A stretch of DNA of 34,524 nucleotides from a virus. Under the pieces are notes generated by a model. The model ran no database searches, was not told where the DNA came from, and saw only the letters and a list, made by a program, of their open reading frames with translations. The stretch spans positions 1-34,524 of the IMG/VR virus record IMGVR_UViG_3300021389_000076; one strand, given 5' to 3'. Numbering within the stretch: the first letter of the stretch is position 1; each line of letters opens with the position of its first letter. A program made the position numbers and the translations under genes. Shown here in pieces: positions 720-19,903 of this stretch.

Positions 720-725
720 TTTATA

Positions 726-1037: not shown

Positions 1038-1043
1038 AATTTT

Positions 1044-2039: not shown

Positions 2040-2055
2040 GATATAACCTATGTTT

Positions 2056-2226: not shown

Positions 2227-2256
2227 AAAATATTTCCTTTTAATTGTTTTTGAAGT

Positions 2257-3393: not shown

Positions 3394-3394
3394 A

Positions 3395-4756: not shown

Positions 4757-4777
4757 TGACTCTTTTTAAAACTTATA

Positions 4778-4809
4778 CAAATATACGAAATTTATTTTTA
4801 ATATCCAAA
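4778..4809 (-). promoter_or_regulatory. Early-type promoter P1 (TTTG-N20-TATATTTG)
   Basis: On the minus strand TTTG (4806-4809) and TATATTTG (4778-4785) are separated by exactly 20 bases. This matches the Bacteroidota primary-sigma consensus (-33 TTTG, -7 TAnnTTTG). It lies in the only gap between the exonuclease and helicase genes, placing transcription start roughly 15 bases before the helicase ATG. Confidence 0.8.
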
Positions 4810-5865
4810 TTATTTTATGATTAAATTTCCAAAAGTGGTTTTTAACCAATCATTGATATCTCCAAAGTTTCCGATAACTTTGTATTTTAACAGAATTTTC
4901 ATGAAATTCATTTTATTTAAGGGTTCGATAGGTTCGTTAAATCTATCTAAAGTTTTCATTTTTATATTACCACTAATATCAACATCATCAAGTTGCATTA
5001 GTTCCCTATTTAGTAATATTTGTCTTTTTGATTTAAGTATATCTTTGTAAATCTTTATTTTACCTTTTGTTTCAGTTTCCTTTTCTTCACATAATTTTAG
5101 TAAATCATCTACTGATAATTTAACATCTTCTGTAATTTCAGGAAATCTTTTTACTACGGTCTTAATACCACATCCATATACTCCAGGAATATTATCTGAT
5201 TTATCCCCATCCAATACTCTATATAGTAAAAGGTTTTTGGATTCAATTCCATACTCTTCCTTTACCATTGTTTTATTGTACATTTTCTTTTTGGTGGGTG
5301 ACCAGACGATGGTTGTATCATCAACCAATTGAAGGAAATCCTTATCAGTTGACATAATCACCGCCTGTTCATCTTCCTTGAGAAGTTTGGTGGATATATA
5401 AGCCATGATATCATCGGCTTCAACACCATCATATATCATAGTTGTAAGAGGTAATCCATCTAACATTTCATTTAACCAAACGAATTGTCTTTTCATGGAT
5501 TCTCTTTCATCCTCATCATTCATCATACCTGCATAGGCACGATTTACTCTGAGTTTGTTAGAATCTCTTTGAGCTTTATATCCACTAAATTTCTTCTTTC
5601 TTTGGGTAGAACCACCCTTACCATCGAACACTACAACAACACGAGTCGGTTGAGTTTGTCTAATTGCATATCCAATTGATTTGAGAACACCAGTTACACC
5701 ACCAACATGGTCACCATCTTCATTCATTGTAGGAATGGATGACCAACATCTGATAAATGTATTTAATCCATCAATAATTAATACACGAGAATTCTTGTGT
5801 CTATTGATATTTTGTTCTCTATCGGTTTCAACCGAATCTAAAATGTTTTTGTATAGTTCTTTCAT
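4810..5865 (-). CDS. 5'-3' exonuclease / RNase H (FEN family, T4 rnh-like)
   Basis: A 351-residue FEN-family nuclease expected to remove RNA primers and flaps during lagging-strand synthesis. Acidic metal-binding motifs are visible in order: LIIDGLNTF (Asp32), VVVVFDGKGGS, DGVEADDIMAY and STDKDFLQLV. They are followed by the helix-hairpin-helix region DGDKSDNIPGVYGCGIKT that grips duplex DNA. A roughly 20-residue polar N-terminal extension precedes the first catalytic strand. Its start codon overlaps the stop of the small gene upstream, in the transcript gp32-uvsX-small gene-exonuclease. It probably complements the family A polymerase of this phage, which carries no 5' nuclease of its own. 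Confidence 0.88.
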   Translation of the reverse strand: MKELYKNILDSVETDREQNINRHKNSRVLIIDGLNTFIRCWSSIPTMNEDGDHVGGVTGVLKSIGYAIRQTQPTRVVVVFDGKGGSTQRKKKFSGYKAQRDSNKLRVNRAYAGMMNDEDERESMKRQFVWLNEMLDGLPLTTMIYDGVEADDIMAYISTKLLKEDEQAVIMSTDKDFLQLVDDTTIVWSPTKKKMYNKTMVKEEYGIESKNLLLYRVLDGDKSDNIPGVYGCGIKTVVKRFPEITEDVKLSVDDLLKLCEEKETETKGKIKIYKDILKSKRQILLNRELMQLDDVDISGNIKMKTLDRFNEPIEPLNKMNFMKILLKYKVIGNFGDINDWLKTTFGNLIIK

Positions 5866-6086
5866 TATAAAACTTCTTTAGTATTAAAGTATTTTTCAAG
5901 TGCTCCTAATCTATCATCTGCATCTACTAACATAACGAGAGCTTCCTCTGCGTTTTTGTAGAAATCTTCAGTAGAGTGGTCACCGATTCCAACTGCTTTA
6001 TTACCAAGAAGTTCTAAAGAAAGTAGAGCTTTGGCCTTATCAGCCTCAGCACTACTTTTCAACATCGTAAATAATTTTTTGTCCAT
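5865..6086 (-). CDS. Small conserved-looking protein of unknown function
   Basis: A 73-residue protein beginning MDKKLFTMLKSSAEADKAKALLSLELLG, predicted mostly helical and slightly acidic, with no recognisable motif. It is wedged between uvsX (gap of 2 bases) and the 5'-3' exonuclease (overlapping stop and start), so it is cotranscribed with recombination and replication genes and likely works there. I do not recognise the family; a helicase-loader or recombination-mediator role would be a guess from position only. Confidence 0.7.
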   Translation of the reverse strand: MDKKLFTMLKSSAEADKAKALLSLELLGNKAVGIGDHSTEDFYKNAEEALVMLVDADDRLGALEKYFNTKEVL

Positions 6087-6088
6087 AA

Positions 6089-7219
6089 CTATTCATTTAC
6101 ACCAGCACCACGAGTATCTATTTCCATATTATCGATATCTAAAGTATCAGATTTATATTGTAAGATTGTTTCTTCACATATCTTTTTGTAAATCTGTTCT
6201 CTAAGTTCAGTATTCTCATCCATCAAAGGAATAAAATCTTTTGATTGGAATTTAAATTCTTCACCTGTTTCAGTATCAACATATGAATACCATGCACCAG
6301 CTTGTTTTACTAATTTGTTTTCTTTCATAACTCCGAGCCATGACCCGTAGTTATCAATCCCTCTGTCAAAGTAGATTTCAAAATCAGCCGCTCTTAGAGG
6401 TGGGCCCATTCTGTTTTTTACAACTTGACAACGTACTTTCATACCAACTGTTTTGTCCTTACCATTTACCTTCATCTTGATTTGTCCCATATTCTTTAAC
6501 CTCAATCTTACAGATGCGTGAAAAGCAAGAGCTTTACCACCACTTGTAGTCCAAGGGTCTCCGAACATAGCATTCATCTTTTGTCTAAGTTGGTTAGTGA
6601 ATACCAATGAGATTTTCTGTCTACCAATCATATTGGTAATCTTTCTCATCGCCTTCGAGATAATAATAGCTTTATCAGTAGCGTATCCATCTTTCTTGTA
6701 ATCTGCCGCTAATTCATTAGTTGTAGAAGCAGCCGCAACTGAATCTACTACTATTGTTACTATTTTATCTTTGGAAGTTTCTCTAACTTTCTCAATGATA
6801 GTTTCTGTGAAATCAAAGATTTGTTCAACCGAATCAGCCGTTACATAAAGAAGTTTAGAAACGTCAACACCGATTGCTTCTAAAAATTCTCTACTTACTG
6901 CAGTTTCTGTATCAATAAGAACAGCAACACCACCTTGTTTCTGTGTTTCCGCAAGGAGGTGTGCTGATACTAATGATTTTCCTGATTGTTCTAATCCTGT
7001 GATTTCAGTTATTCTACCAACGGGTAAACCACCATAAGGACGATTTGAAACAGCCACATCCAACATTGCACATCCTGTCGATATCCAACCATCTACGTTT
7101 GTAGGTGCTTCATCATCGTTAAGAAAAAATGCTACTTTGGAATCTTTCGATTGTTTGTTAAGTTCACCCGCTAGAATATCAGCCAGGTCGAGCTCTTTTA
7201 CTGCCTTCTTTTTCGCCAT
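6089..7219 (-). CDS. uvsX: RecA-family recombinase, UvsX-like
   Basis: A 376-residue strand-exchange protein. Walker A is GLEQSGKS (75-82), preceded by the RecA-type GGLPVGRITEI strand. The Walker B region is IVTIVVDSVAAAS (about 153-165), followed by LVFTNQLRQKM matching the RecA DNA-binding loop 1 area, and KALAFHASVRLRLK with the helix usual in RecA and UvsX. The short N-terminus and the ending DIDNMEIDTRGAGVNE fit phage UvsX rather than bacterial RecA, which has a longer C-terminal domain. It is 10 bases downstream of the gp32-like gene, its known functional partner in T4 recombination-dependent replication. No UvsY was recognised. Confidence 0.92.
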   Translation of the reverse strand: MAKKKAVKELDLADILAGELNKQSKDSKVAFFLNDDEAPTNVDGWISTGCAMLDVAVSNRPYGGLPVGRITEITGLEQSGKSLVSAHLLAETQKQGGVAVLIDTETAVSREFLEAIGVDVSKLLYVTADSVEQIFDFTETIIEKVRETSKDKIVTIVVDSVAAASTTNELAADYKKDGYATDKAIIISKAMRKITNMIGRQKISLVFTNQLRQKMNAMFGDPWTTSGGKALAFHASVRLRLKNMGQIKMKVNGKDKTVGMKVRCQVVKNRMGPPLRAADFEIYFDRGIDNYGSWLGVMKENKLVKQAGAWYSYVDTETGEEFKFQSKDFIPLMDENTELREQIYKKICEETILQYKSDTLDIDNMEIDTRGAGVNE

Positions 7220-7229
7220 TTAGTTTGGT

Positions 7230-8039
7230 TTAGTTGTTAAATAAATCATCAAAAGCAGCCGCTACATCATCAGTTTTCTTCGATGAAGATTCTGTTGTAG
7301 TAGTTGGTGCAGATTCTACTGGTTTAGAAGCTGGAGTATTTTGTGATAAGGTAGCCTGAGATTCAGTTTCTTTCTCACCTTCTCCACTTGGGTTTAACCA
7401 ACCTTCTAATACTGATTTTAATTCATCATAAGATAATTCAGAATATAAATCTGTAATTTCAGTTTGTGATTCTAAAAATTGAGTTACTTTATCAGTATCT
7501 TCACTCACTGGTGTAGTTGATGGTTTAACTCTAATAGTAGTAGTTGGATAAGTAGTACCAGCTTCTTCTGCTGATTTGTACTCGATTGTTAAATCTCTAC
7601 CACTTGTTGGGTCGGTGATATCACCATAATCAGGGTCAGCAATATATCCAAGAATTTCTTGATATACAGTTTTACCAAATCCCCAAAATCTTACTCCTTC
7701 ACCTTCTTCACCTCTAACAATAACGGGTACGAAAGTTCTCAACTTAGGCTCCATAGCCTTCGCAGCCTTCCAATCATCTTTATCACCCATTCTCTTTAGT
7801 TTATCTGCAAACTCTACAATAGGGTCTGGTCTACCAAATGATTGTGGTGAAAGATACGTTTTGTTATTAATGTTGTAGTGAAAGTACAATTCGATGAAAG
7901 GGTTATCTTTATCAAATTGATAAGGAACGATTCTTACTTGATGTTTACCTGGAGTAGGTTTCCAAAGTGCATCAGTTTTACGTTGTGTGTTTTGCAGTTT
8001 GTTCAGTCTGCTTCTGATTGCGTTAATGTCTAAAGCCAT
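7230..8039 (-). CDS. Single-stranded DNA-binding protein, T4 gp32-like
   Basis: A 269-residue protein with gp32 architecture. A basic N-terminus (MALDINAIRSRLNKLQ, then RKT, the region used for cooperative binding in T4) is followed by an OB-fold core rich in aromatic residues (FIELYFHYNINNKTYLSP, GVRFWGFGKTVYQEI). A Ser/Thr-rich linker (about 215-250) leads to an acidic tip DDVAAAFDDLFNN that would recruit replication partners. I see no cysteine, so the structural zinc of T4 gp32 is missing. It heads the uvsX-exonuclease operon. The leader is about 80 bases, with a hairpin and a late-type box, suggesting regulated expression as in T4, where gp32 represses its own translation through a leader structure. 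Confidence 0.88.
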   Translation of the reverse strand: MALDINAIRSRLNKLQNTQRKTDALWKPTPGKHQVRIVPYQFDKDNPFIELYFHYNINNKTYLSPQSFGRPDPIVEFADKLKRMGDKDDWKAAKAMEPKLRTFVPVIVRGEEGEGVRFWGFGKTVYQEILGYIADPDYGDITDPTSGRDLTIEYKSAEEAGTTYPTTTIRVKPSTTPVSEDTDKVTQFLESQTEITDLYSELSYDELKSVLEGWLNPSGEGEKETESQATLSQNTPASKPVESAPTTTTESSSKKTDDVAAAFDDLFNN

Positions 8040-8089
8040 GATTTTTACCTTTTAGTTTTAATTAATTTATTTTTTAAGTTTAAAGTTTT

Positions 8090-8112
8090 GAGTGCCAAAC
8101 TTATTAACACTC
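8090..8112 (-). promoter_or_regulatory. Leader hairpin of the gp32-like gene (shared loop)
   Basis: The transcribed strand reads GAGTG, a 13-base loop TTAATAAGTTTGG, then CACTC: a perfect 5-bp stem about 50 bases before the start codon. The loop contains ATAAGTTTGG, identical to the sequence in the Hc1 leader hairpin at 2257-2272. The position is where T4 gene 32 carries its autoregulatory pseudoknot. Confidence 0.5.
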
Positions 8113-8120
8113 GGTGTATA

Positions 8121-8130
8121 TATAAATATA
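8121..8130 (-). promoter_or_regulatory. Late-type box TATATTTATA upstream of gp32-like gene
   Basis: An exact minus-strand TATATTTATA about 82 bases before the gp32-like ATG. The TTTG/CTTG -33 element is absent at the 20-base spacing. It is the only copy upstream of a replication gene, and would give the gp32-like gene a leader containing the 8090-8112 hairpin. Confidence 0.45.
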
Positions 8131-8176
8131 AAGAAACCACAAAAAACACCGAATTTTCGTGATTACTTATTAACAA

Positions 8177-8518
8177 TTATTTAGCCCATTTATCTCTTTG
8201 AACGATTTGTGAAATGATACCATAAACTGATAAATCTTCATAGGTATCTTGAATATTTTCACCAACCTCATCTGGTTGGCCTTTGACTACTAATTGTAGT
8301 AATCTTTGTATTTTATCATTCTTTCTAAACCACAATCCAGTCAATGCAACATTCTTATCTTCTGTTGTTTCCAAAGGTGAACCTACTGATATATTACCAG
8401 GTCCATAGTTCCTTTGTTTTTTACAAAAAGTTTCGTACATCTCATCGAGGATTTTTTTAAACTCTGCGGTGGTTTCAGGATATAACCTTTCACAGTATTC
8501 TTTTGCTGTTTCTTCCAT
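8177..8518 (-). CDS. DUF1599-like protein (possible nucleotide-related)
   Basis: A 113-residue protein with the pattern I associate with DUF1599: YETFCKKQRNYGPGNIS (about 29-45), then GLWFRKNDKIQRLLQLV (62-78), then ENIQDTYEDLSVYGIIS (89-105). Conserved acidic and arginine residues in helices recall MazG-like all-alpha pyrophosphatases, but I cannot confirm an activity. It lies directly behind promoter P2 (8537-8568) and is the last gene before the gp32 operon, so it is probably expressed early. Confidence 0.6.
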   Translation of the reverse strand: MEETAKEYCERLYPETTAEFKKILDEMYETFCKKQRNYGPGNISVGSPLETTEDKNVALTGLWFRKNDKIQRLLQLVVKGQPDEVGENIQDTYEDLSVYGIISQIVQRDKWAK

Positions 8519-8536
8519 ATTTAAATTTTATTTATA

Positions 8537-8568
8537 CAAATATACGAATTTATTTTTACAATTCCAAA
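8537..8568 (-). promoter_or_regulatory. Early-type promoter P2 (TTTG-N20-TATATTTG)
   Basis: Minus-strand TTTG (8565-8568), 20 bases, then TATATTTG (8537-8544), 19 bases before the ATG of the DUF1599-like gene. The spacer also shares AAAAATAAATTCG with P1 and P3. A 9-bp inverted repeat (TACGAATTT/AAATTCGTA) spans the spacer and upstream side. Confidence 0.8.
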
Positions 8569-8590
8569 CAAATTCGTATTTTTTTTATTA

Positions 8591-8881
8591 TTAAGCTTGA
8601 GATAGTTCCTCAATATCAATTTCTTTCATTAACAAATCATATGATAACTCGGTTGGGTTATGGAATATAACCTCGTGGTCAATATATTCAAACTTCTCCA
8701 AATCATTGGATTGTTTTTCTACTATCTTAGATAGTTTACCCTTCATATCATCAGTCCATATTGCTACATCTGATGATACTTCCATTGTGAACTTATGTCC
8801 ACCTTTTGGTTTCCAATGAGTTGTTCCCTCATGAAATCCATAATTTTCGTAATACTGAGTATCAATTATAATTTTTGCCAT
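8591..8881 (-). CDS. Hypothetical phage protein with DTQYYENYG/HWKPKGG motif
   Basis: A 96-residue protein of unknown function. Its N-terminus IIIDTQYYENYGF followed by HWKPKGGHKFTMEV resembles small proteins seen in many phages with a conserved ENYG and KxKGG pattern; I cannot name the family with certainty. The C-terminal third is acidic and helical. It belongs to the row of small early-type genes between P7 (9546-9577) and P2, separated from the next gene by only 17 bases. No signal peptide or membrane helix is seen. Confidence 0.7.
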   Translation of the reverse strand: MAKIIIDTQYYENYGFHEGTTHWKPKGGHKFTMEVSSDVAIWTDDMKGKLSKIVEKQSNDLEKFEYIDHEVIFHNPTELSYDLLMKEIDIEELSQA

Positions 8882-8898
8882 AATTCAAATTTTAAATT

Positions 8899-9129
8899 TT
8901 AATAAAAAAACGCATTCCACATAATTGAAATGGGTAGTTTGTGAACACCTCTTCGTGTTTCAATATGTTTGTTTGATTCGTATCGTCCTCGTTCATCCAT
9001 ATAAGTACAATAACCTTTTTCAGGATAAACACCAATTAATTTTGAACAAAGGGTTGGAGCGAAATTATTAGAAAACTTCTGTCCAATAACTTCTTTTAAT
9101 TCGTTTACTTGAGTTTCTGTAAAATACAT
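8899..9129 (-). CDS. Small hypothetical protein
   Basis: A 76-residue protein (starting MYFTETQVNELKEVIGQKF) with a helical N-terminus and aromatic, basic C-terminus ending WNAFFY. No motif recognised. It lies in the same run of closely spaced genes as the HExxH protein (10 bases upstream) and the DTQYYENYG protein (17 bases downstream), so it is probably cotranscribed from P7. Confidence 0.6.
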   Translation of the reverse strand: MYFTETQVNELKEVIGQKFSNNFAPTLCSKLIGVYPEKGYCTYMDERGRYESNKHIETRRGVHKLPISIMWNAFFY

Positions 9130-9139
9130 ATTTTAAGGT

Positions 9140-9526
9140 TTAAATAAATAATTTGTAATCTTTTTCGTAACTAATCGCTTCAATCTCATATGGATGAGTT
9201 ACATAATCATATCCCATATTGTAATATCTTTTGAACCAAGATGGTGATTGTAAGTAGTGGATGTATTCGTGAATCAAAGTTTGAATAACCATTTTCTTAC
9301 TTTTCATCTGTGGATAGTAAATACTAATTTCATTCATCATTGAACAATACTCAGCGTGACACTTATCTTCTTCACCTTCAGCACCTTCCTCACCACTATA
9401 CTTTTCATAAATGTTTTTATGAAGTTCTACATAAGGAGTACATTCTTGGAATTTTGAGAACCCATAATGTTTCTCAATCTTTGGGAAGATTTCTTTAACT
9501 ATTTTTTTAACTGTTGATTCTTTCAT
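9140..9526 (-). CDS. Putative zinc metallopeptidase (HExxH)
   Basis: A 128-residue protein with a zincin motif HEYIH (H86, E87, H90) in TLIHEYIHYLQ, and a likely third ligand glutamate in YEIEAISYEKDY about 25 residues later. That spacing fits gluzincin- or SprT-like small metallopeptidases. An acidic insert GEEGAEGEED (about 45-54) and two cysteines (CHAEYC) lie before the active site. A frame extending to 9535 would start with TTG; I use the ATG at 9526 because it is 20 bases after the -7 box of promoter P7. No signal peptide, so the target is intracellular and unknown; small phage zincins can be virion-maturation or host-takeover proteases. Confidence 0.65.
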   Translation of the reverse strand: MKESTVKKIVKEIFPKIEKHYGFSKFQECTPYVELHKNIYEKYSGEEGAEGEEDKCHAEYCSMMNEISIYYPQMKSKKMVIQTLIHEYIHYLQSPSWFKRYYNMGYDYVTHPYEIEAISYEKDYKLFI

Positions 9527-9545
9527 AACTCTCAATCTTACACTA

Positions 9546-9577
9546 CTAATATACGAAAAATATTTGAGACTACCAAA
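9546..9577 (-). promoter_or_regulatory. Early-type promoter P7 (TTTG-N20-TATATTAG)
   Basis: Minus-strand TTTG at 9574-9577, 20-base spacer, TATATTAG at 9546-9553. One deviation from the -7 consensus (TTAG for TTTG), but the spacing and flanking CG are the same as in P1-P3. It lies directly upstream of the HExxH gene and probably drives the three genes to 8591. Confidence 0.65.
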
Positions 9578-9594
9578 TTTTTTAACACTTTTTT

Positions 9595-9885
9595 TTAATC
9601 AACTTGATTATGTGCATAATATTTACTTGAATCTGTGATATTATAATTGTATAAAGTTCCACAATCATCATCATCCATGGTATTTTCGGTAATATTACAC
9701 CAATCTGGTAGTATTTTTTTCAATCCGTCTAAATCTACTTTTTGCCAGTATCCAAATCTAAGTGTTATTCCTGTACACACAGAATACACTCTACCTTTAG
9801 TGAAGTAATCATCATTTCCGATTTGGAAATCATCAGAACCATACCACTTTTTAATTTGTTTAAATATTTTATATCCTATTCTCAT
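9595..9885 (-). CDS. Hypothetical protein
   Basis: A 96-residue protein rich in Asp, Tyr and Trp, with segments GRVYSVCTGITLRFGYWQKVDLDG and an acidic run MDDDDCGTLYNYN. No motif recognised. It is read together with two more unknown genes from promoter P4 (10507-10538): 10128-10469, 9896-10108, then this one, with 10- to 20-base gaps. There is no secretion signal. The high aromatic and acidic content is typical of small phage host-takeover proteins, but that is only suggestive. Confidence 0.6.
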   Translation of the reverse strand: MRIGYKIFKQIKKWYGSDDFQIGNDDYFTKGRVYSVCTGITLRFGYWQKVDLDGLKKILPDWCNITENTMDDDDCGTLYNYNITDSSKYYAHNQVD

Positions 9886-9895
9886 GTCTTATATT

Positions 9896-10108
9896 TTAAA
9901 TTCCACATTCCATTCTATGAACATACTCATGGTGGAGATATTCAGTATAAACTTGTAGGTTTAAGTAATCGCCTTGTTTACTATAATCCCCAATGTAACT
10001 AAAATCCAAACTATCGAAGTTAGAATCGTTACTAACTAACCAAGAATATTGTTTCTTGGTTAAATATGTTAAATCATTTAATTTTTTTACTAAATCTGCT
10101 ACTGTCAT
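9896..10108 (-). CDS. Small hypothetical protein
   Basis: A 70-residue protein (MTVADLVKKLNDLTYLTKKQ at the start) with a predicted N-terminal helix and a tyrosine-rich C-terminus (YTEYLHHEYVHRMECG). The HHEYVH stretch resembles HExxH in letters only: E and H are not in the right register (HHEYVH does contain H-E-Y-V-H), but the protein is too short to carry a third ligand and fold. It is part of the P4 operon. Confidence 0.55.
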   Translation of the reverse strand: MTVADLVKKLNDLTYLTKKQYSWLVSNDSNFDSLDFSYIGDYSKQGDYLNLQVYTEYLHHEYVHRMECGI

Positions 10109-10127
10109 ATCTTATATATTTTATATT

Positions 10128-10469
10128 TTAAAATTGTCCATCATCTTCAAATGATACCAATTCTGGTTCAGAATACTTGTATGTTACTGATAAAGTTGGG
10201 TTAAATATTGTTTGATATCCACTTTGATTATAAACACTATTAGTAAAGTTACTAATAACTGTATCTATAAAATCTTTTAGAAGATAAGTTCCATCAGAAG
10301 AACCGAAGCCATCTCCCTCATCCCAATCATTAGTCCATTCTTCAGCTATCTGTACTGAAATATCAACCAATTCAGAGAATTGAATTTGTTCATCGTTAAT
10401 CATTTGTTTGAAAGAATCGATACCAAGAGCCTTGGTTACGATAGTGGAAGGGTTTACTAAGTAATTCAT
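10128..10469 (-). CDS. Hypothetical protein, first gene behind repeated promoter P4
   Basis: A 113-residue acidic protein (starting MNYLVNPSTIVTKALGIDSF), with EEWTNDWDEGDGFGSSDGTY in the middle. No known motif. Its ATG lies about 38 bases downstream of the -7 box of promoter P4, whose leader matches the leader of the P5 gene at 18587-18874, so the two genes should be coregulated although their products are unrelated. Confidence 0.65.
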   Translation of the reverse strand: MNYLVNPSTIVTKALGIDSFKQMINDEQIQFSELVDISVQIAEEWTNDWDEGDGFGSSDGTYLLKDFIDTVISNFTNSVYNQSGYQTIFNPTLSVTYKYSEPELVSFEDDGQF

Positions 10470-10496
10470 TCGTTTAACTTTTAAGTGTTATTAATT

Positions 10497-10511
10497 ATTT
10501 ACATAGTAAAT
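10497..10511. promoter_or_regulatory. Candidate operator palindrome, copy A
   Basis: ATTTAC-ATA-GTAAAT, a perfect 6-bp inverted repeat with a 3-base centre, overlapping the first bases of the -7 box of P4. The same 15 bases occur at 18901-18915 and 19211-19225. The position would let a dimeric protein block promoter opening. Confidence 0.6.
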
Positions 10512-10538
10512 ATACGAAAAAAAAACGAGAAATCCAAG
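10507..10538 (-). promoter_or_regulatory. Early-type promoter P4 (CTTG-N20-TATATTTA)
   Basis: Minus-strand CTTG at 10535-10538 and TATATTTA at 10507-10514 with the same 20-base spacer as P1-P3. The -7 box has A in place of the final G, and it is covered by the palindrome at 10497-10511. Confidence 0.7.
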
Positions 10539-10549
10539 CAAAAAGTGAA

Positions 10550-10951
10550 TTATTTTTTGTTAAATTCTATTACCTCGAAGATTCTTGTAGAAATCTTTTT
10601 TGTTCCTTCTACATTGGTAACGATGATTGAGTTTTGGAATTTATCCCAATCGATAGAGAATTTTTTATCTAATACACCATTGTTTTCTTCTTTAACTAAT
10701 TCGTTTAGTGCATTGATGGTATAAAGAGTATTAGATTGTTTCTTTCTATGAACTAATATAGTATCAGAAAGAGGTCTTTCTGGTCTAAATGTTGTATCTA
10801 TATTATAGGTAACAAAAAGCTCTTCCAAATTACCCTTATTCTGTAAAACATAGATATAGTTATAAACTATATGATACGTTTCTCGAATTTGTTGCAAGGT
10901 ATTCTGAAGTTCAACTTTAGTAGTAAAAGTACAAAGTAACTGTGTTTGCAT
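10550..10951 (-). CDS. Hypothetical protein
   Basis: A 133-residue protein (MQTQLLCTFTTKVELQNTLQQI at the start) that may be an alpha/beta fold: an initial strand, a helix with YHIVYNYIYVLQNKG, then LFVTYNIDTT, DTILVHRKKQSNTLYTINALNELV and a final strand-rich part. I recall proteins of this kind in marine T4-like phages but cannot assign a function. It is preceded by a late-type box at 10983-10992 and is followed by the P4 cassette, so it is probably a single late-expressed gene. Confidence 0.65.
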   Translation of the reverse strand: MQTQLLCTFTTKVELQNTLQQIRETYHIVYNYIYVLQNKGNLEELFVTYNIDTTFRPERPLSDTILVHRKKQSNTLYTINALNELVKEENNGVLDKKFSIDWDKFQNSIIVTNVEGTKKISTRIFEVIEFNKK

Positions 10952-10982
10952 AAATTTCCTATCTCAATTATAATTGGTCACC

Positions 10983-10992
10983 TATAAATATA
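10983..10992 (-). promoter_or_regulatory. Late-type box TATATTTATA
   Basis: Exact minus-strand TATATTTATA, 32 bases before the ATG at 10951, in a 114-base gap that contains nothing else recognisable. No TTTG/CTTG at the -33 position. Confidence 0.55.
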
Positions 10993-11065
10993 ATCGAATT
11001 TTACGAAAATGTTAAAATATTAACTAAATGTAATGTACCTCGAATTAGAGTTATGTATGGGGGTT

Positions 11066-13333
11066 CTAGCAAGTGTATTTCTTAGAATACTCTTCTTTTT
11101 CAGGAAAATCTCTACCCTCAGCAACGTTGGCACAATATAGTTTTTCTTTCATAGAAGGATGTAGATTCATTTCTAAATTAACTGCTGGTTCATAACCCAA
11201 ACCTCTTTGTCTTGGTGCAACAGTTGAGAGAGGAATCTTTTCTCCACTTGCCTCTACTTCAAATACCAATTGATAATCACCCTTTTCATCTGGTCCATCT
11301 ATTGTTAGATTTTCTTCTATTTCATCATAATTGGTTGTACCAAATATTCTTTCAAGAACTTTAGGGTCTGCATTAACACCTCCAAGAGACATCTTCTCTT
11401 CTCCTTCAAGTAATGATTTAAGTGGAAACTTTTCTCTTACTGTATTCATCATACCACTTTTGTATGGTTCGTTTACCATATTTTCAACAAATGCTTTATT
11501 AAAATCTTTTCCTATTTTTAGATGTTTTTCAAGTGCCTTTTCTGATTCTTCATCACCTAAAAATTTACCAGTTCTCATCATCATTGTAGAAAACTTATCT
11601 AAGTACATTGAAGTGGTTTTTTGTTTTTTAAATCCAGCTTCAATCATTTTATCTCTTAATTCATCTCGGTTGATTGGATGTGTTAATCCTTTTAAAACTT
11701 TAACAAATGCAGCAGTATATTTTTTATCTTGATTTAGTGCTTTTGATAATTTAGCAATACCTTCTGGTGAATCATCTATACTATTCATTAAGGTAAGTTG
11801 TTGTAAAGAAACATTATTATAGAATTCAACATTACTACTTCTCATTTTTTCGTTAAATACTTTTGGAGAAGCTGCATCAGGTACTCTATTCATACCTTCT
11901 TCTTTTAATTCTTGTTCTCTTTTCTTTAACTTTTCATCTTCTTTTTTACCTTCACCTTTTGTATTTTCTTTATTAGCTTTTAGTTCAGCTCTTCTTTGTT
12001 GTATCTGCTCTAACTCTTTAGATTCTTCTTCACTCAAAGCCCATGTACCAACTGCACTTACTGATGGTTGTGATAGGAATATATCCAAATCTTTTTTAAG
12101 TGATACTTCATCTAATTTAGATTCACCTGTTTCTTTGTTTTTTACTCTAAGGTACATATCAGTAGAGAATCCTTTGTTTTGAGAATAACTTTCCATTCCC
12201 ATTGCTTCTACCTCATCACCTAAATCCCATGCACCATTTTCTATTTCCCAATTTCCTTTTCCAAATTCGGCATCATATCTTTGTCTAATACCTGCTCTTA
12301 CCGCTTTAGAAGAGTTTACCCAACCTGCATCTAAAATAGGTTCTTGTCCTTTTTTATATCTTGGTGGTTTATAAGATGAACCATCTGCCTTTTTTTGTTC
12401 TAACTTTTCATTGTGAGATTCAATGATAGATACAACTTGTTCAAATTGTTCATCATCTAATGTAGAGAATACCATAGACATTACTTCACCAGCTTGAGCT
12501 TGTATCTTACCTGCACCAGAACCACCAATCATTGAAGTCATAGGAGGTGTTGTACTATTTACTAATCGAGCATTTACTAATCTCTCCATTAGTTTAACAT
12601 ATTTTTTTGGTACTTTTGATGGTGAACCAAAAACATCTTCTGATAATTTTACTGGTGTATCAGAGTTGGATTCTGGTTTATTTTTTTCATACTCTTCATC
12701 AGTTATATCAATTTCTTTTTCATAAAACTCTCTATTAACTTCACCAAGAGATTTATTTTTTTCTCTTTTTAGAACATTTGGTTGAGATTGTGGAGTTGAT
12801 TTCTTTTCTTCAGGATTACTATCTTCTTTTTCTTTTTGGATTTTATCTACAATTTCTTTTTCTTTTTTTCTTTGTGCTTTTTGAGATGGAGTATTAAAAG
12901 TTTTCTTTATAGAATCTTGTTTTTCCTTTTCTTCTTCTGGTGAACTTCCATCACCACTTGAGTTTTGTTCCGAATCTTTAGCAGCTTCTTCTCCCTCTTC
13001 TCCTTGCTTTTCCTTTTCTTTATCGTATTCAGAATCAGATACTGCTTTTAGTTTTCCGCTATCATCTTTGGTGTATTTCTGAGCACCATCTTTACCTTTA
13101 TCAGAAGCCTTTACATAAAAACCTTTACCAATATGAGCATAATCTTTATCCTCACCTTCAGTATCATCTTCATTAGTTAGAAATTCAAAGATAGTTTCTT
13201 TTACATCATACTCACCCCATTCTGAAAGAATCTCAGACATGATTGATTGATGTTCCTTGTTATGTACATTGGGAATCCCTACTCTGTATGAGAGTTCTCT
13301 TACTAACTTATCTATGATTTCTTTATAATCCAT
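11066..13333 (-). CDS. Large protein of unknown function, charged N-terminal linker
   Basis: A 755-residue protein in three parts. A short folded N-terminus (1-75, ending AHIGKGFYVKASDKG) precedes a very long Lys/Glu/Ser-rich, probably disordered linker (about 76-235). A folded C-terminal half (240-755) contains GMESYSQNKGFSTDMYLRV and DEVSLKKDLDIFL (D392, E409, K413/K414), a spacing reminiscent of a PD-(D/E)XK-like nuclease core but not a clean match. GGSGAGK at 270-276 looks like a P-loop but lacks the following Ser/Thr. I believe related proteins occur in marine T4-like phages, but I do not recognise a function. It follows the LamG-like gene by 15 bases, and a late-type box overlaps the gap. 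It could be virion-associated or a processing enzyme. Confidence 0.75.
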   Translation of the reverse strand: MDYKEIIDKLVRELSYRVGIPNVHNKEHQSIMSEILSEWGEYDVKETIFEFLTNEDDTEGEDKDYAHIGKGFYVKASDKGKDGAQKYTKDDSGKLKAVSDSEYDKEKEKQGEEGEEAAKDSEQNSSGDGSSPEEEKEKQDSIKKTFNTPSQKAQRKKEKEIVDKIQKEKEDSNPEEKKSTPQSQPNVLKREKNKSLGEVNREFYEKEIDITDEEYEKNKPESNSDTPVKLSEDVFGSPSKVPKKYVKLMERLVNARLVNSTTPPMTSMIGGSGAGKIQAQAGEVMSMVFSTLDDEQFEQVVSIIESHNEKLEQKKADGSSYKPPRYKKGQEPILDAGWVNSSKAVRAGIRQRYDAEFGKGNWEIENGAWDLGDEVEAMGMESYSQNKGFSTDMYLRVKNKETGESKLDEVSLKKDLDIFLSQPSVSAVGTWALSEEESKELEQIQQRRAELKANKENTKGEGKKEDEKLKKREQELKEEGMNRVPDAASPKVFNEKMRSSNVEFYNNVSLQQLTLMNSIDDSPEGIAKLSKALNQDKKYTAAFVKVLKGLTHPINRDELRDKMIEAGFKKQKTTSMYLDKFSTMMMRTGKFLGDEESEKALEKHLKIGKDFNKAFVENMVNEPYKSGMMNTVREKFPLKSLLEGEEKMSLGGVNADPKVLERIFGTTNYDEIEENLTIDGPDEKGDYQLVFEVEASGEKIPLSTVAPRQRGLGYEPAVNLEMNLHPSMKEKLYCANVAEGRDFPEKEEYSKKYTC

Positions 13334-13340
13334 ACTATAC

Positions 13341-13350
13341 TATAAATATT
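13341..13350 (-). promoter_or_regulatory. Possible late-type box (AATATTTATA)
   Basis: A 9-of-10 match to TATATTTATA only 8 bases before the ATG at 13333 and overlapping the stop codon of the LamG-like gene. If active it would give an almost leaderless transcript, so it may be fortuitous. Confidence 0.25.
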
Positions 13351-14245
13351 AAGGTGCAGAATTCTTATATGTATGGTCACTTGGTAGAGAACTTGTTAAT
13401 CCCCATTTGTGTGCAAGATAACCTTCTGCTTTTATTAAATGTGTTAAATCAGTACCACTTGTACCAGGTATATTTGCTACTGCAAAGAATTCACCTAATT
13501 TACCATCCAATTCTTGAGATGACCTGTTTCTCATCAACCTTAATTGTTGGTTTGTTTGTAATGAGTTATCATAATCATTTACAGGTGTGAATGCGTTTGT
13601 ACCATCTACTCTAACACCGATTTGGTTTCCACTCTTATTAAACCAACAAGCAACGATGTGATATTGATTTCTTGTTAAACTTTTATCATCCCATAATTCT
13701 ACATTACCAATTGTAGAACTAATTCTGTTAGAAAATAAACCATCCAAATCTAATTCACCTGGCCAAGAGTTTGATGAGTTACCACTACTGATTGCATAAT
13801 CTCTTTTTGGTGATTGATTTGTTTCATAACTCCAAAGTGTATCTTGAGTACTATTTGTTCCTTCGAATCTAAACACACCGATTGCCCAATGGTTACCATT
13901 TGATACTTGTGCTTCATTTGTACTACTTTGTAGATAATCTCCATTACCATCAAAATCGAATACATTCAATCCGTTCTGAGTTGATGAGTTAGTTACTACA
14001 TTACTACCAATATCTATTGTATAAGTTCCTGATTTATCAGTTACAGAAGTTAGGCCTGTTCCACTTCTTGTGTAAGTTGAAGAATCTGATGCATCAATCC
14101 AAGCAACAGTTGTTATATCTGTATTTGGTGACCAAGGAGTTGAGGCACTACCTGTTGGCCAGATGTGTTCGTTATTATAATAAACACCATCCACCGAAAC
14201 ATTATTGAAATAAATGCCTTGTGCGGTATTAATCCTTCTATCCAT
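13349..14245 (-). CDS. LamG/concanavalin-like virion-associated protein
   Basis: A 298-residue protein. After a short N-terminal segment (VSVDGVYYNNEHIWPTG, like phage minor structural proteins) it has a jelly-roll-type domain: WIDASDSSTYTRSGT, FDFDGNGDYLQSS, GVFRFEGTNS, IVACWFNKSGNQIGVRVDG and LGEFFAVANIPG. It ends with the motif AEGYLAHKWGLTSSLPSDH that is very common in LamG-like proteins of marine phages and bacteria. Such domains bind carbohydrates. A preceding AAGGAT ribosome-binding site and a 2-base gap from the fibre-like gene upstream suggest the two are made together and form an adhesion or receptor-binding structure on the virion. Confidence 0.7.
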   Translation of the reverse strand: MDRRINTAQGIYFNNVSVDGVYYNNEHIWPTGSASTPWSPNTDITTVAWIDASDSSTYTRSGTGLTSVTDKSGTYTIDIGSNVVTNSSTQNGLNVFDFDGNGDYLQSSTNEAQVSNGNHWAIGVFRFEGTNSTQDTLWSYETNQSPKRDYAISSGNSSNSWPGELDLDGLFSNRISSTIGNVELWDDKSLTRNQYHIVACWFNKSGNQIGVRVDGTNAFTPVNDYDNSLQTNQQLRLMRNRSSQELDGKLGEFFAVANIPGTSGTDLTHLIKAEGYLAHKWGLTSSLPSDHTYKNSAP

Positions 14246-14247
14246 TG

Positions 14248-14580
14248 TTATCCTTGTATGATATATAAAGTACCACTAACTGGTGTAATTGCTTCATAAG
14301 ATGCGGTTGTCATCACTTGTATCGTATCTACTGTTGATGAACTCACATATCCTAAACTTGCTATTTGAGTTGAACCACTAATAATATTACTACCATCTGT
14401 GATTTGAGTTGAACCACTTATGATTCCATCACCATCTGTGTTTAAATATTTTGAATCAAAAGTTGTTGTGGTAGCTACAGAATCAACTACCCATGTTGTT
14501 CCATTATAACGATATACCGTACCATTACTTGCGGTGTGAGTATCTCCACTTGATGCTCCATCAGGAAAATTGAAAGCCAT
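14248..14580 (-). CDS. Small fibre-like structural protein
   Basis: A 110-residue Ser/Thr/Gly-rich protein. Its N-terminus FPDGASSGDTHTASNGTVYRY, NGTTWVVDS resembles the collar-like start of phage fibre proteins. The centre has a short repeat ISGSTQITD / ISGSTQIAS (about 54-76), and the end SGTLYIIQG resembles fibre tips. No enzyme motif. A strong AAAGGAG ribosome-binding site 9 bases before the ATG fits high late expression. It overlaps nothing and lies just upstream of the LamG-like gene, so a fibre-adhesin pair is plausible. Confidence 0.6.
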   Translation of the reverse strand: MAFNFPDGASSGDTHTASNGTVYRYNGTTWVVDSVATTTTFDSKYLNTDGDGIISGSTQITDGSNIISGSTQIASLGYVSSSTVDTIQVMTTASYEAITPVSGTLYIIQG

Positions 14581-14599
14581 AATTAAATCTCCTTTACTA

Positions 14600-14609
14600 T
14601 ATAAGTATT
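14600..14609 (-). promoter_or_regulatory. Weak late-type box before fibre-like gene
   Basis: The minus strand reads AATACTTATA about 20 bases before the ATG at 14580, two mismatches from TATATTTATA. Listed because of its position; the fibre gene may instead be read through from the nuclease gene. Confidence 0.25.
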
Positions 14610-15255
14610 AAAGTAAACTCTTCTTACGAGCTTTACCTTGAGTTTCTACTTCACATTCTACTTCGTATTCATTCCAAGGTTTTGTCGGTTTTTGATTAGG
14701 GAATACAAATTTTCTACAAGTACCATCATCATCAAAGTAAATTGTTTTTACCATTGTAGTTGGAATATGTCCACCTGTTGGTAAAACTTCATGTCCTTCT
14801 TCAAAGATGTTTTCGATTGTAATTGTTAAATTTTGTTCATCATCCCAAACCCTTTCTTCTTGTTCTAACAATCTCCAAGCACCTCTATTCAAATCTTGTT
14901 GTTGTAAAGTACAATTTAAATAAGAAAATGTCGTATAAAGATTATTATAAGAATCGGAATATGTAGCGGCGGGTGCAAGATGTCCTTTATCCCATGGATT
15001 AGAGTAATAATCATGCTTATCTGATGTATGTACTCCATTTTCTTTATGAAAATCCATATTTCCTCTATCTACGTTTTTTGGTCTATTTGTTGAGGTATAA
15101 GTAAGTTTTACTGGTTGTTCCAATACTTCACTATACCACACCTTAAATACTTCGTTCTCAATTATAACTTCTTCTCTTAGTTCTTGAGCAACGATTTCTT
15201 CTGGACTACACCCAACTAAGAGGAATGTAAAGAAGATTAATTTTAATAATTTCAT
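14608..15255 (-). CDS. Lipoprotein DNA/RNA non-specific endonuclease (NUC1, beta-beta-alpha-metal)
   Basis: A 215-residue exported nuclease. Residues 1-16 are a lipoprotein signal peptide (KLLKLIFFTFLLVGC) with lipobox LVGC and Cys16 as the lipid attachment site. The next residues SPEE form the acidic patch seen in Bacteroidota surface-lipoprotein export signals. The catalytic region has DKGHLAP (His92, general base) and TFSYLNCTLQQQDLNRGAWRLLE cut as N114, Q118-120, N123, E131; the spacing of H, N and E matches Serratia nuclease (H89, N119, E127). It should degrade DNA and RNA outside the inner membrane. A late-type box lies 26 bases upstream. Roles could be destroying competing phage DNA at the cell surface, digesting released nucleic acid or nutrient scavenging. 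The ending GKARKKSLL is basic. Confidence 0.88.
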   Translation of the reverse strand: MKLLKLIFFTFLLVGCSPEEIVAQELREEVIIENEVFKVWYSEVLEQPVKLTYTSTNRPKNVDRGNMDFHKENGVHTSDKHDYYSNPWDKGHLAPAATYSDSYNNLYTTFSYLNCTLQQQDLNRGAWRLLEQEERVWDDEQNLTITIENIFEEGHEVLPTGGHIPTTMVKTIYFDDDGTCRKFVFPNQKPTKPWNEYEVECEVETQGKARKKSLL

Positions 15256-15282
15256 ATTTTTTATTAAAGTTTTAGTTCAATA

Positions 15283-15292
15283 TATAAATATT
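15283..15292 (-). promoter_or_regulatory. Late-type box before lipoprotein nuclease
   Basis: Minus-strand AATATTTATA (9 of 10 to TATATTTATA) 27 bases before the nuclease ATG at 15255. It overlaps the stop codon of the DNA polymerase gene, marking the change from an early-type operon to a late-type one. Confidence 0.5.
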
Positions 15293-16547
15293 AAACTTTT
15301 GAGTAATCACTACCCCAATCCGCTTTGACGGGAAATCCATAACTTTCGAGAACGGATTTAACTAATTTAATAGTTTCAACCTCAGAATCATCGAATTCAA
15401 ATAAGAATGAATCATAAGTGTATAATATAGGAAGAGGAAGTTGTAACTTCTTTAGTTTACTCAGTACCTCAATGTTAAACTCGGTTTCCGTCGCTTGGAG
15501 AATATAATTAAAGAACTTTTGTGCGTTAGGTTTTTCAATCCAACCTAAAGGTATTTTTCTACCTTTGGGAGTTTGTAAATAACCATTTTTCACTGCTTCG
15601 TTTTGCATCTTGGAAATAAACCTATCTACTTTATCAAAGAATGGTATCTTTCTATCTTCATCGGATACACCTCCATATAAGATTCTAAACGTTCTTCCTT
15701 TGGATTCCCCATAATCACAACCATATTGGTCTGCTAACCATTGGTGAACCGAAGTATCGGGTAGTTTGTATTTAATCAACTTACCAATAATCCTAACATG
15801 ATATGCATCGTAATCGAATTGTAAAAAGAGTTTTCCTTTTTTTGGAATGAATACTCCCCTACTACCATCGGATTTGTTTAATGCACCATAATTGATACCT
15901 AAATGTCTATTGGAAGGTCTTGATGTAATCGTGTATGGATTGTATTCGGTGAATGTATGTGAAAACCATAAAGATTTACGATTATCTGGCCATCTATCAA
16001 AAAATTTTTCCCTATCGACTTGTATCCCTTTTCTCTCGATATCTGAAAGGATAGGAATCATCGTTTCATCCACCCAATTGTTTGTATGGGTTATATCCCA
16101 CTCATCTGCAATACCTCGTAGTACCTCACCCCACTTCATTATAGGGATTGATTTACCCAAACCATCTCTTATACCCATTCGGATATAAAAACTCGTTAGA
16201 ACCTCTAATTTATCACCGAAAGGGTATATTTTAAAGTTTTCAAAGAATAAAGAAGTTTGCACATCTTTTAGATTATTTACCTTAATATCGGTTTGTAAGA
16301 AACCTTTTTTGTTCCAAATCCACTTTTCTTGATTCGAGGTTGATAAATCTATTTCTAACTTTTCACAATCATTATGGTTGAATGGAAGTATAAAATCAAG
16401 ATTTCGGAATTGGACATACAAAAATGACAACCCATTAGTCATAGGATGTCTTTCCAAATCTTCCCAAATAGGAATAATCTTAGATTCTTCGTTATTCCAA
16501 TATTCGAGAAATTGGTCTTTCTCTTTATTAGTTTCTACTATAATCAT
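15291..16547 (-). CDS. Compact family A DNA polymerase
   Basis: A 418-residue DNA polymerase I-type replicase. Motifs in order: TSRPSNRHLGINYG (208-221), the T-x-R primer-template contact; motif A FDYDAYHVRIIG with catalytic Asp245; motif B KGRTFRILYGG with K283, F287, Y291 and G292; motif C ILYTYDSFLFE with catalytic Asp379. Motif C lacks the usual second acidic residue (HDE), as in some phage relatives. The first 150 residues hold the place of a proofreading domain, but I see no DxE or other exonuclease motifs, so 3'-5' activity is probably lost or supplied elsewhere. The polymerase is much shorter than E. coli Pol I and T7 polymerase. It closes the P3 operon, overlapping the 78-residue gene upstream by 4 bases. 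Canonical T4 uses a family B enzyme, so this is a lineage marker. Confidence 0.85.
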   Translation of the reverse strand: MIIVETNKEKDQFLEYWNNEESKIIPIWEDLERHPMTNGLSFLYVQFRNLDFILPFNHNDCEKLEIDLSTSNQEKWIWNKKGFLQTDIKVNNLKDVQTSLFFENFKIYPFGDKLEVLTSFYIRMGIRDGLGKSIPIMKWGEVLRGIADEWDITHTNNWVDETMIPILSDIERKGIQVDREKFFDRWPDNRKSLWFSHTFTEYNPYTITSRPSNRHLGINYGALNKSDGSRGVFIPKKGKLFLQFDYDAYHVRIIGKLIKYKLPDTSVHQWLADQYGCDYGESKGRTFRILYGGVSDEDRKIPFFDKVDRFISKMQNEAVKNGYLQTPKGRKIPLGWIEKPNAQKFFNYILQATETEFNIEVLSKLKKLQLPLPILYTYDSFLFEFDDSEVETIKLVKSVLESYGFPVKADWGSDYSKV

Positions 16548-18586: not shown

Positions 18587-18874
18587 TTATTTGTTTAAAG
18601 TTAACATTGATAATGGAACATTATATTCACTAACTCTACCATAAGAAGTGTTGTTTAGAACTTCAATAACAGCTTTAGTTCTGTTAATTTTCTTAACTCT
18701 ACATTGTTTACCATTCAACTTAGGATGGTTAACATTAACATTAGCTCCGATATAAAGTTCGTTCTTTACATCCCAAGCCAATTCACTTTTTTTGATTTTG
18801 ATTACTTCAACTACTTTAGAGTTCAACTCTCTTAGTTCTTCAAGGGAAAGGTTTTTTAATTCTGAATAATTCAT
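18587..18874 (-). CDS. Hypothetical protein with KOW/SH3-like C-terminal segment
   Basis: A 95-residue protein. The N-terminal 35 residues form a charged helix (LEELRELNSKVVEVIKIKK). The rest looks like a small barrel: YIGANVNVNHPKLNGKQCRVKKI, NRTKAVIEVLN and YNVPLSMLTL, similar to KOW/SH3-like nucleic-acid or ribosome-associated domains. A role in transcription or translation control is a guess. It is the first gene behind promoter P5 and shares its leader with the P4 gene. Confidence 0.65.
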   Translation of the reverse strand: MNYSELKNLSLEELRELNSKVVEVIKIKKSELAWDVKNELYIGANVNVNHPKLNGKQCRVKKINRTKAVIEVLNNTSYGRVSEYNVPLSMLTLNK

Positions 18875-18900
18875 GTTTTAAGTTTTAAGTGTTATTAATT

Positions 18901-18915
18901 ATTTACATAGTAAAT
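18901..18915. promoter_or_regulatory. Candidate operator palindrome, copy B
   Basis: ATTTAC-ATA-GTAAAT overlapping the -7 box of P5; identical to copies at 10497-10511 and 19211-19225. Confidence 0.6.
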
Positions 18916-18942
18916 ATACGAAAAATAAATGAGAAATCCAAG
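18911..18942 (-). promoter_or_regulatory. Early-type promoter P5 (CTTG-N20-TATATTTA)
   Basis: Minus-strand CTTG at 18939-18942, 20 bases, TATATTTA at 18911-18918; 37 bases before the ATG at 18874. Confidence 0.7.
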
Positions 18943-18964
18943 CAAAAGTGGATTTTTTTTTCAA

Positions 18965-19192
18965 TTATTTTAACCACAAGTTATAAACATAATCGTAACT
19001 TGTTTTTAGTTGTTTTGCTAATTCTGAGAATAATCTCTCTCTTACTAAACTATCAGCAACACCGATGTAATCATAAACATCCATACCACCAAATAGTTGA
19101 GTAACCAATCCAGCGAAGGTTGCTTTATCATCAAGTTCAATTCCCAACTCATCAGTTGGGTACGTTTCTAAGTAAAATTGTTTAATTGTCAT
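18965..19192 (-). CDS. Small hypothetical protein, single gene behind P6
   Basis: A 75-residue acidic helical protein starting MTIKQFYLETYPTDELGIEL, containing DYIGVADSLVRERLFSELAKQL. No motif recognised. It stands alone between two copies of the repeated promoter cassette: P6 upstream and P5 downstream. Being a one-gene unit under the shared operator, it is a reasonable candidate for a regulator or an anti-host factor, but nothing in the sequence proves that. Confidence 0.65.
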   Translation of the reverse strand: MTIKQFYLETYPTDELGIELDDKATFAGLVTQLFGGMDVYDYIGVADSLVRERLFSELAKQLKTSYDYVYNLWLK

Positions 19193-19210
19193 ATCTTTTA
19201 AGTTTTAATC

Positions 19211-19225
19211 ATTTACATAGTAAAT
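19211..19225. promoter_or_regulatory. Candidate operator palindrome, copy C
   Basis: ATTTAC-ATA-GTAAAT, identical to the other two copies although the adjoining -7 base differs, which suggests the palindrome itself is under selection. Confidence 0.6.
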
Positions 19226-19252
19226 GTACGAAAAAAATACGAGAAATCCAAG
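19221..19252 (-). promoter_or_regulatory. Early-type promoter P6 (CTTG-N20-TACATTTA)
   Basis: Minus-strand CTTG at 19249-19252, 20-base spacer, TACATTTA at 19221-19228 (still fits TAnnTTT). It lies 29 bases before the ATG at 19192. Confidence 0.65.
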
Positions 19253-19270
19253 CAAAAAGTGAATTATTTT

Positions 19271-19903
19271 TTAAATTTTTTCAAAATAACCACCAACATC
19301 AAATGAAATATTAGTGTTTATAGAACCTTTAGTAGAAGGTACGAATTCGGATGGTTTAGCTATTCTAAAATCAACAGAAACTCTACTATCATGTTCTTCA
19401 TTAGTTTTATTACCATGTAGTAAGTTTGCTCCTTTGAATACTAAAACCTCACCATATGAGATATTATAGGGTTTAAAATCTTCTTTACCCTCTTCTGATT
19501 CAATCCATATAGTATTTGTTTCATATGAATCGGTAAATGGTAGTAGTATATTTATTTCTGATTGTCCATGATTGTAATCCCTATCTCTATGCCACTCACC
19601 AACAGCTTGATTACCTTTTAAATGAACTCTGAAAGTTGGAATCTTTTGGAATATAATTTCATCTAATTCAAATTCATACTTAATGAACTTATCTATAAAA
19701 TTATAATATGTTTGTTTAAACCTTTCATCAAAGTTACTATAATATAGTTTATGCCATGTAGTAGATTGGTCTTTTTCTCTTGTAAGTGTTTTATATTCTT
19801 CTACTTCATGTAGATTTTCAAGTGTGTTTGTTTTTAATGTTTCCTTTACAATTTCTCTGAATGGATATAAGGATGTATCATATCTTAATTTATATGTTTT
19901 CAT
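19271..19903 (-). CDS. Fe(II)/2-oxoglutarate-dependent oxygenase
   Basis: A 210-residue oxygenase with an intact iron-binding triad: H105-R-D107 in GEWHRDRDYNHG and H163 in ANLLHGN, followed by R174 in HDSRVSVDFR to bind 2-oxoglutarate. The double-stranded beta-helix is visible in INILLPFTDSYETNTIWIES and YGEVLVFKGANLLHGN. Such enzymes hydroxylate small molecules, proteins or nucleobases; the substrate cannot be read here. I use the ATG at 19903, which overlaps the upstream oxygenase stop as ATGA; the longer frame would need TTG at 19912. The pair is therefore translationally coupled, next to tail genes. Confidence 0.82.
   Translation of the reverse strand: MKTYKLRYDTSLYPFREIVKETLKTNTLENLHEVEEYKTLTREKDQSTTWHKLYYSNFDERFKQTYYNFIDKFIKYEFELDEIIFQKIPTFRVHLKGNQAVGEWHRDRDYNHGQSEINILLPFTDSYETNTIWIESEEGKEDFKPYNISYGEVLVFKGANLLHGNKTNEEHDSRVSVDFRIAKPSEFVPSTKGSINTNISFDVGGYFEKI

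Follow-up and report, generated by a model that had tools for sequence, protein, structure and literature searches.

We describe a phage gene for an exported DNA/RNA non-specific endonuclease (NUC), for which the best explanation, held tentatively and at somewhat under an even chance, is a phage-encoded route for scavenging extracellular nucleic acid. The gene (nt 14608–15255, minus strand) starts with ATG, encodes 215 aa and lies in the window, by which we mean the whole 34.5 kb stretch of DNA analysed, taken from an IMG/VR virus record. Its fold family, catalytic residues, export signal, late-type box and purifying selection can be read from the sequence. The scavenging reading draws on the conserved export of the enzyme, on linkage to NrdA, on a cassette of receptor, S1/P1 nuclease and kinase in related phages, and on the adjacency of cellular relatives to a SusC/SusD-like pair.

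The window is a fragment of a contractile-tailed phage, with genes for tail sheath, tube and hub, and nearly all of its genes lie on the minus strand. It also encodes a ribonucleotide reductase (RNR) small subunit (nt 1044–2039, minus strand; phrog_86, E = 2.4e-72), which gives a nucleotide-supply context ∼13 kb downstream of the nuclease, together with a DnaB-like helicase, UvsX, an ssDNA-binding protein and MazG; the gene set as a whole is myovirus-like and lytic. No tRNA or Rfam element was found in the window. We infer that the host is a marine member of the Bacteroidota, since the isolate relative is Flavobacterium phage immuto, the sister group of the nuclease is flavobacterial, and the receptor of a sister contig shares 74% identity with a Polaribacter receptor.

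The nuclease matches Pfam Endonuclease_NS (PF01223) with E = 1.1e-17 and 64.8 bits, where the cut-off is 23, and PHROG 14168 'nuclease' (phrog_14168) with E = 1.8e-13; NCBIfam gave no family for it. In a phmmer search of the PDB it matches Drosophila EndoG, mouse EndoG and Serratia nuclease, and in an alignment with 3ism its residues H92, N123 and E131 fall on the catalytic set of EndoG. Specifically, H92 lies in the catalytic motif DKGH (D89–H92, nt 14980–14991; DRGH in EndoG), the metal-ligand N123 in LNRGAW (codon at nt 14887–14889) and the catalytic-site E131 in LLEQE (codon at nt 14863–14865), all on the minus strand. The motif and all three residues are invariant across 11 nuclease homologues (alignment A1), in keeping with what a sequence-only reading of this DNA had predicted, a complete NUC1-type nuclease. 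DKGH replaces DRGH throughout this branch of the family, in viral and cellular proteins alike, which is a conservative R to K change. A Foldseek search with an AF2 model returned EndoG, EXOG, Serratia nuclease and NucA with prob 1.0; this model and that of the kinase discussed below come from shallow alignments and are of low confidence (pLDDT 66 and 68), so that their fold matches count as support only. The gene is under purifying selection, with dN/dS of 0.10–0.27 between the window and eight relatives, and a family-profile scan of viral contigs confirmed at least 589 viral relatives. Judged by these matches the window protein is a member of the known Endonuclease_NS enzyme family; what appears to be new is an exported phage version with import partners.

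In a tree of the family, 56 of the 60 viral nucleases fall into one well-supported clade, and a neighbouring clade groups 46 cellular nucleases, flavobacterial and related, that include many lipoproteins. Two MAG contigs are nested in the viral clade and are possibly viral contigs in bins. The nucleases L100, L102, L113, L129 and L132, from bins assigned to Hellea, Flavobacteriaceae, SAR86 and other Gammaproteobacteria, lie inside or next to the same clade; their contigs may be of phage origin, caught up in MAGs or single-cell genomes. Among the flavobacteria, one marine clade (inspected in L138, L139 and L142) has the cellular nuclease lipoprotein as the divergent neighbour of a SusC/SusD-like pair, SusD being recognized by eye. 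This adjacency is a second link between the nuclease family and TonB-dependent import.

The N-terminus of the window enzyme reads MKLLKLIFFTFLLVGC followed by SPEE, with a lipobox, LVGC, that ends in Cys16; the lipoprotein signal peptide, MKLLKLIFFTFLLVG and then C16, is encoded at nt 15208–15255 (minus strand). Sorted with a rule-based classifier rather than SignalP, the 58 distinct viral homologues comprise 36 with a lipobox, 21 with a Sec-type or other signal and one (L080) with a plain Sec signal assigned by eye. Because all 58 carry an export signal while lipobox and Sec types are mixed, export is conserved and the type of anchor is not. Together with the low dN/dS this argues that export is the selected feature, and since it is kept family-wide while the proteins switch freely between lipoprotein and Sec forms, it also argues that the nuclease acts outside the cytoplasm. 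The lipobox noted in the sequence-only reading is thus genuine by these rules, and is found likewise in at least 36 of the 58 viral homologues; the exported nuclease is very probably a lipoprotein.

That reading had also seen a surface-export-like signal in SPEE, which occupies positions +2 to +5 after the lipid cysteine (nt 15196–15207, minus strand). The Bacteroidota rule calls for a polar residue and two acids around +4/+5 (Lauber 2016, PMC5080379), and published forms of the signal (LES) combine a polar or K residue with an acidic pair near +3 to +6 (QKDDE, SDDFE, SDDDD). With its acids at +4/+5, SPEE fits the loose rule and resembles the published signals without being identical to them, and the closest relatives have SPEE, STEE or TAEE at this place. 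However, the acidic patch is a trait of a subclade only: adjacent acids at +3 to +6 occur in 12 of the 36 lipoprotein-type viral homologues, compared with 14 of 89 background lipoprotein-like ORFs from flavobacterial contigs, and many relatives have a plain Sec signal. Surface display of the nuclease is plausible from its sequence.

A late-type promoter box, ATATTTATA, lies 36 nt upstream of the nuclease start (nt 15283–15291, minus strand). The same box precedes the genes for tail sheath (nt 30568–32952; box at 32994–33002), tail tube (nt 30025–30513; box at 30536–30544) and baseplate hub (nt 29149–29904; box at 29930–29938) on the same strand. The window holds nine copies on the minus strand and none on the plus strand, where a Markov model expects 1.0 ± 1.0, and eight of the nine lie at most 90 nt upstream of a gene, the sheath, tube and hub genes among them. 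In 21 distinct close relatives the box sits at −29 to −41 before the nuclease, those with a different upstream gene included; it is absent from the nuclease in more distant lineages. A second box, TTCGTA(T/C)ATTT, stands ahead of non-structural genes. The claim that the nuclease has a late-type box of its own is borne out by the strand bias and by the sharing of the box with tail genes, and late expression of the nuclease in the window lineage is a well supported prediction. A T4-type late promoter was considered and rejected, since it needs TATAAATA at −10 on the coding strand and the coding strand gives ATATTTATA. Three near-identical upstream regions of ∼80 nt (at nt 10440–10560, 18850–18965 and 19165–19275, minus strand), located before three small genes, read TTTTGCTTGGATTTCTC...TTCGTATATTTACTATGTAAAT and represent a repeated promoter or leader with the non-late box. 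Another late box precedes the gene for a 755 aa protein (nt 11066–13333, minus strand), which is found downstream of the nuclease lineage-wide and has no match in Pfam or PHROG.

The upstream neighbour of the nuclease, conserved in the lineage (neighbour cluster 2), is a DNA polymerase A-like gene (nt 15291–16547, minus strand; phrog_17, E = 8.6e-13). Its product has 418 aa, and its profile matches (residues 304–413) reach only the C-terminal part of family A polymerases; it is possibly a split or reduced polymerase. Downstream on the same strand follow a short protein (nt 14248–14580) with weak tail-tip or tail-collar similarity (Pfam 0.0028, below the cut-off; phrog_3449, 0.0047) and a virion-structural or lectin-like protein (nt 13349–14245; phrog_10356, 4.7e-8), neither of them conserved. 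The sequence-only reading had taken such neighbours as adhesin-like. Both genes are missing beside the nuclease in a sister contig and several other close relatives, and we rejected the adhesin link as a conserved feature. The sister contig (G001, 68.5 kb) is collinear with the window, with 91% DNA identity over the polymerase–nuclease stretch and 86% between its nt 7170–15649 and window nt 1–8512. At ∼32.5–37.9 kb it carries a GuaB-like gene, a TonB receptor, a small membrane protein, an S1/P1 nuclease and a kinase. Of these the receptor, S1/P1 nuclease and kinase (∼33.6–37.9 kb) begin ∼18 kb beyond the point matching the window end and ∼32 kb from the contig's own nuclease; the window phage may also carry them, beyond the end of its record.

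The same partners recur elsewhere. Neighbour clustering of 59 distinct viral nuclease loci, with Pfam assignments, brought out a TonB-dependent receptor (∼825–904 aa; barrel 2e-17, plug 1e-12), an S1/P1 nuclease carrying a signal peptide (S1-P1, 3.8e-60) and a P-loop, AAA_28 kinase-like protein (2.2e-12). NrdA is followed directly by the nuclease in independent lineages (L056, L061 and L074), and in immuto NrdA and a resolvase-like gene come before it. The fullest order, UvsX – exonuclease – DnaB helicase – NrdB – NrdA – nuclease – receptor – S1/P1 – small membrane protein – kinase, is found in L056 and L061, the UvsX gene of L061 lying outside the stretch listed. The order nuclease – TonB receptor – S1/P1 – small TM protein – kinase occurs in six loci, which do not amount to as many independent events. 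The kinase precedes the nuclease in a separate lineage, L094 has receptor – kinase – nuclease, and in L053 a different TonB receptor lies three genes from the nuclease.

Scans were also started from the partners. Counting sequences and not independent events, a receptor scan of viral contigs found 138 relatives, of which 80 were kept, with the kinase at most four genes away in 39 loci, S1/P1 in 16 and the nuclease in 4, and an S1/P1 scan of viral contigs found 34 loci, 30 of which have the kinase and/or the receptor within three genes and 6 of which show the five-gene order given above. Among 50,697 reference phages there are no S1/P1 relatives, and receptor relatives are present in only 7 records. 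The metal-ligand residues of S1/P1 are invariant in three aligned viral proteins, and enzymes of this family release nucleosides or nucleotides and phosphate. For the kinase, the best folds found with the low-confidence AF2 model are NadR, thymidylate kinase and deoxyadenosine kinase, and some phage homologues are annotated as thymidylate kinase; sequence searches against solved structures returned nothing meaningful. NAD salvage by a NadR-like kinase is possible given this model. For the receptor, the solved-structure searches found SusC homologues, over the N-terminal ∼175 residues only. The phage receptor clade (L205–L284) comprises at least 80 viral contigs at no less than 65% identity, and the Polaribacter receptor to which it is 74% identical lies beside pgi. 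Three flavobacterial genomes have cellular homologues next to pgi, a location that gives no clue to the substrate. A GuaB/IMP dehydrogenase-like gene, its function assigned by eye, directly precedes the phage receptor in many contigs (L197, nt 6468–7538; L205; others), where it adjoins GroES- and GroEL-like genes; 18 of the 80 loci carry it.

According to the scavenging reading, a lipid-anchored non-specific DNA/RNA endonuclease would reach the envelope of the infected Bacteroidota cell and there, outside the cytoplasm, break extracellular nucleic acid down to oligonucleotides. In phages with the fuller gene set, uptake would be through the phage's own TonB-dependent receptor; a phage-encoded exported S1/P1 nuclease would then trim the oligonucleotides to nucleosides and phosphate, and a phage-encoded P-loop kinase, its gene next to that for the phage ribonucleotide reductase, would re-phosphorylate the nucleosides. 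Nucleic acid from outside the cell would in this way supply phage DNA synthesis with nucleotides and phosphate. In marine sediments, Bacteroidota commonly have genes for extracellular nucleases, and DNA is a major phosphorus source in that habitat (PMC8289736). Against the reading, the window has no such cassette, the host relatives of the receptor sit at a chromosomal locus beside pgi, and among 40 nuclease-bearing contigs, most of them fragments, the TonB receptor is found in 12 and S1/P1 in 5. In the window lineage, moreover, nuclease and cassette are apart, and only the nuclease has a late box, the receptor and S1/P1 having none, so their timing is not shared. A wider proposal, which we regard as more doubtful than probable, is that marine Bacteroidota phages carry a transferable nucleic-acid utilization locus with which the infected cell would forage extracellular DNA, the window gene being its surface nuclease, now under late control. 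With the same reservation, its parts would be the exported endonuclease, a TonB-dependent outer-membrane importer, the exported S1/P1 nuclease, the small membrane protein and a nucleoside/nucleotide-type kinase.

Alternatively, a late, envelope-bound nuclease could digest host DNA after lysis and so free progeny virions from viscous, sticky DNA and debris, which is close to the second idea of the sequence-only reading, that host DNA is cleared from released virions. The box that close relatives share with the tail genes would suit such a role, as would the place of the nuclease beside tail genes in the window, and an enzyme held outside the cytoplasm would leave phage DNA safe until it is packaged. 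However, the lipid anchor would keep the enzyme on the debris, other lineages place the nuclease behind RNR or the kinase without a late box, and no lysis gene is found among the recurrent neighbours in the 59 viral nuclease loci. According to a 2022 review, no phage had been reported to degrade eDNA actively (PMC9145820), which we also count against this explanation. Taken together we consider clearing after lysis rather unlikely, though a live competitor of scavenging.

Superinfection exclusion, which the sequence-only reading had put forward, would have a periplasmic or surface nuclease destroy the DNA of later-arriving phages. An exported non-specific nuclease of phage origin could act in this way, and host periplasmic endonuclease I degrades superinfecting T-even DNA, which speaks for the idea. 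Exclusion lipoproteins also exist in phages, namely Llp, Cor and Ltp, the last of which is cited for this role in PMC11437467. However, predicted expression in the window lineage is late and not early, an enzyme on the outer surface would miss DNA that travels enclosed within the tail tube, and the partners that recur (RNR, TonB receptor, S1/P1 and kinase) suggest nucleotide supply. No exclusion gene was found beside the nuclease. The best PADLOC match is weak and unconvincing (0.023), and with NCBIfam giving no family, identity with a known defence protein was rejected. Exclusion thus lacks support as the main function: it is possible but distinctly unlikely, and not favoured over its rivals.

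A general role in extracellular DNA or biofilms, where opening a DNA matrix or aggregates would aid spread, or a gain of phosphate alone without nucleoside import, seems to us improbable. Marine Flavobacteriia do use the same enzyme family as a lipoprotein, and extracellular DNA is important as a phosphorus source (PMC8289736), but this would leave the receptor – S1/P1 – kinase cassette and the RNR linkage unexplained. Cytoplasmic degradation of the host chromosome for nucleotide recycling, with the N-terminal helix incidental, would fit the proximity to RNR and replication genes in some phages, but it is very hard to credit when each of the 58 distinct viral homologues has a clear lipobox or Sec signal, and a cytoplasmic nuclease without specificity would not spare phage DNA.

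Compared with known systems, the enzyme shares its family profile, H/N/E set and fold matches with the beta-beta-alpha metal nucleases Serratia nuclease, Anabaena NucA and EndoG/EXOG, but it has DKGH instead of DRGH and is a short, viral lipoprotein of 215 aa. Streptococci have secreted prophage DNases (e.g., Spd1), which are phage-borne secreted nucleases encoded by Gram-positive prophages; the window nuclease differs in belonging to a myovirus-like lytic gene set, to Bacteroidota and to a family with import partners. The protein gp012 of Immutovirus immuto (NC_055915.1, 'nuclease') is 40% identical, exported and encoded next to replication and RNR genes, and its gene is followed by a lectin-like one, but it has a Sec-type signal, no lipobox and no late box, and lies on a separate branch of the tree. 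Cellular lipoprotein nucleases of marine flavobacteria are of the same family and form the sister group of the viral clade; they differ in being chromosomal and, in one clade, in lying beside the SusC/SusD-like pair. A phage-encoded SusC-like TonB receptor in the megaphage Mar_Mega_1 has been proposed to serve carbohydrate uptake (PMC9723777); no nuclease is mentioned in that paper, whereas in the phages studied here S1/P1 nuclease and kinase genes repeatedly accompany the receptor. DNA-utilization loci of Ca. Izemoplasma co-localize an extracellular nuclease with further nucleases, phosphohydrolases and transporters (PMC8289736), but they are cellular, differently arranged and use ABC rather than TonB transporters. 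A literature search that reached only a minority of subscription journals found neither a secreted phage nuclease for scavenging or exclusion nor a description of the nuclease–receptor–S1/P1–kinase cassette.

Lytic phages are thought to build their genomes and particles from what the chromosome and metabolism of the host itself provide. If the scavenging reading is true, infected cells would in addition harvest the DNA of their neighbours, including DNA freed by earlier lysis, and viral lysis would be linked both to the production of new virus and to marine phosphorus recycling. It would also supply a function for phage TonB-dependent receptors, which have so far been proposed to serve carbohydrate uptake.
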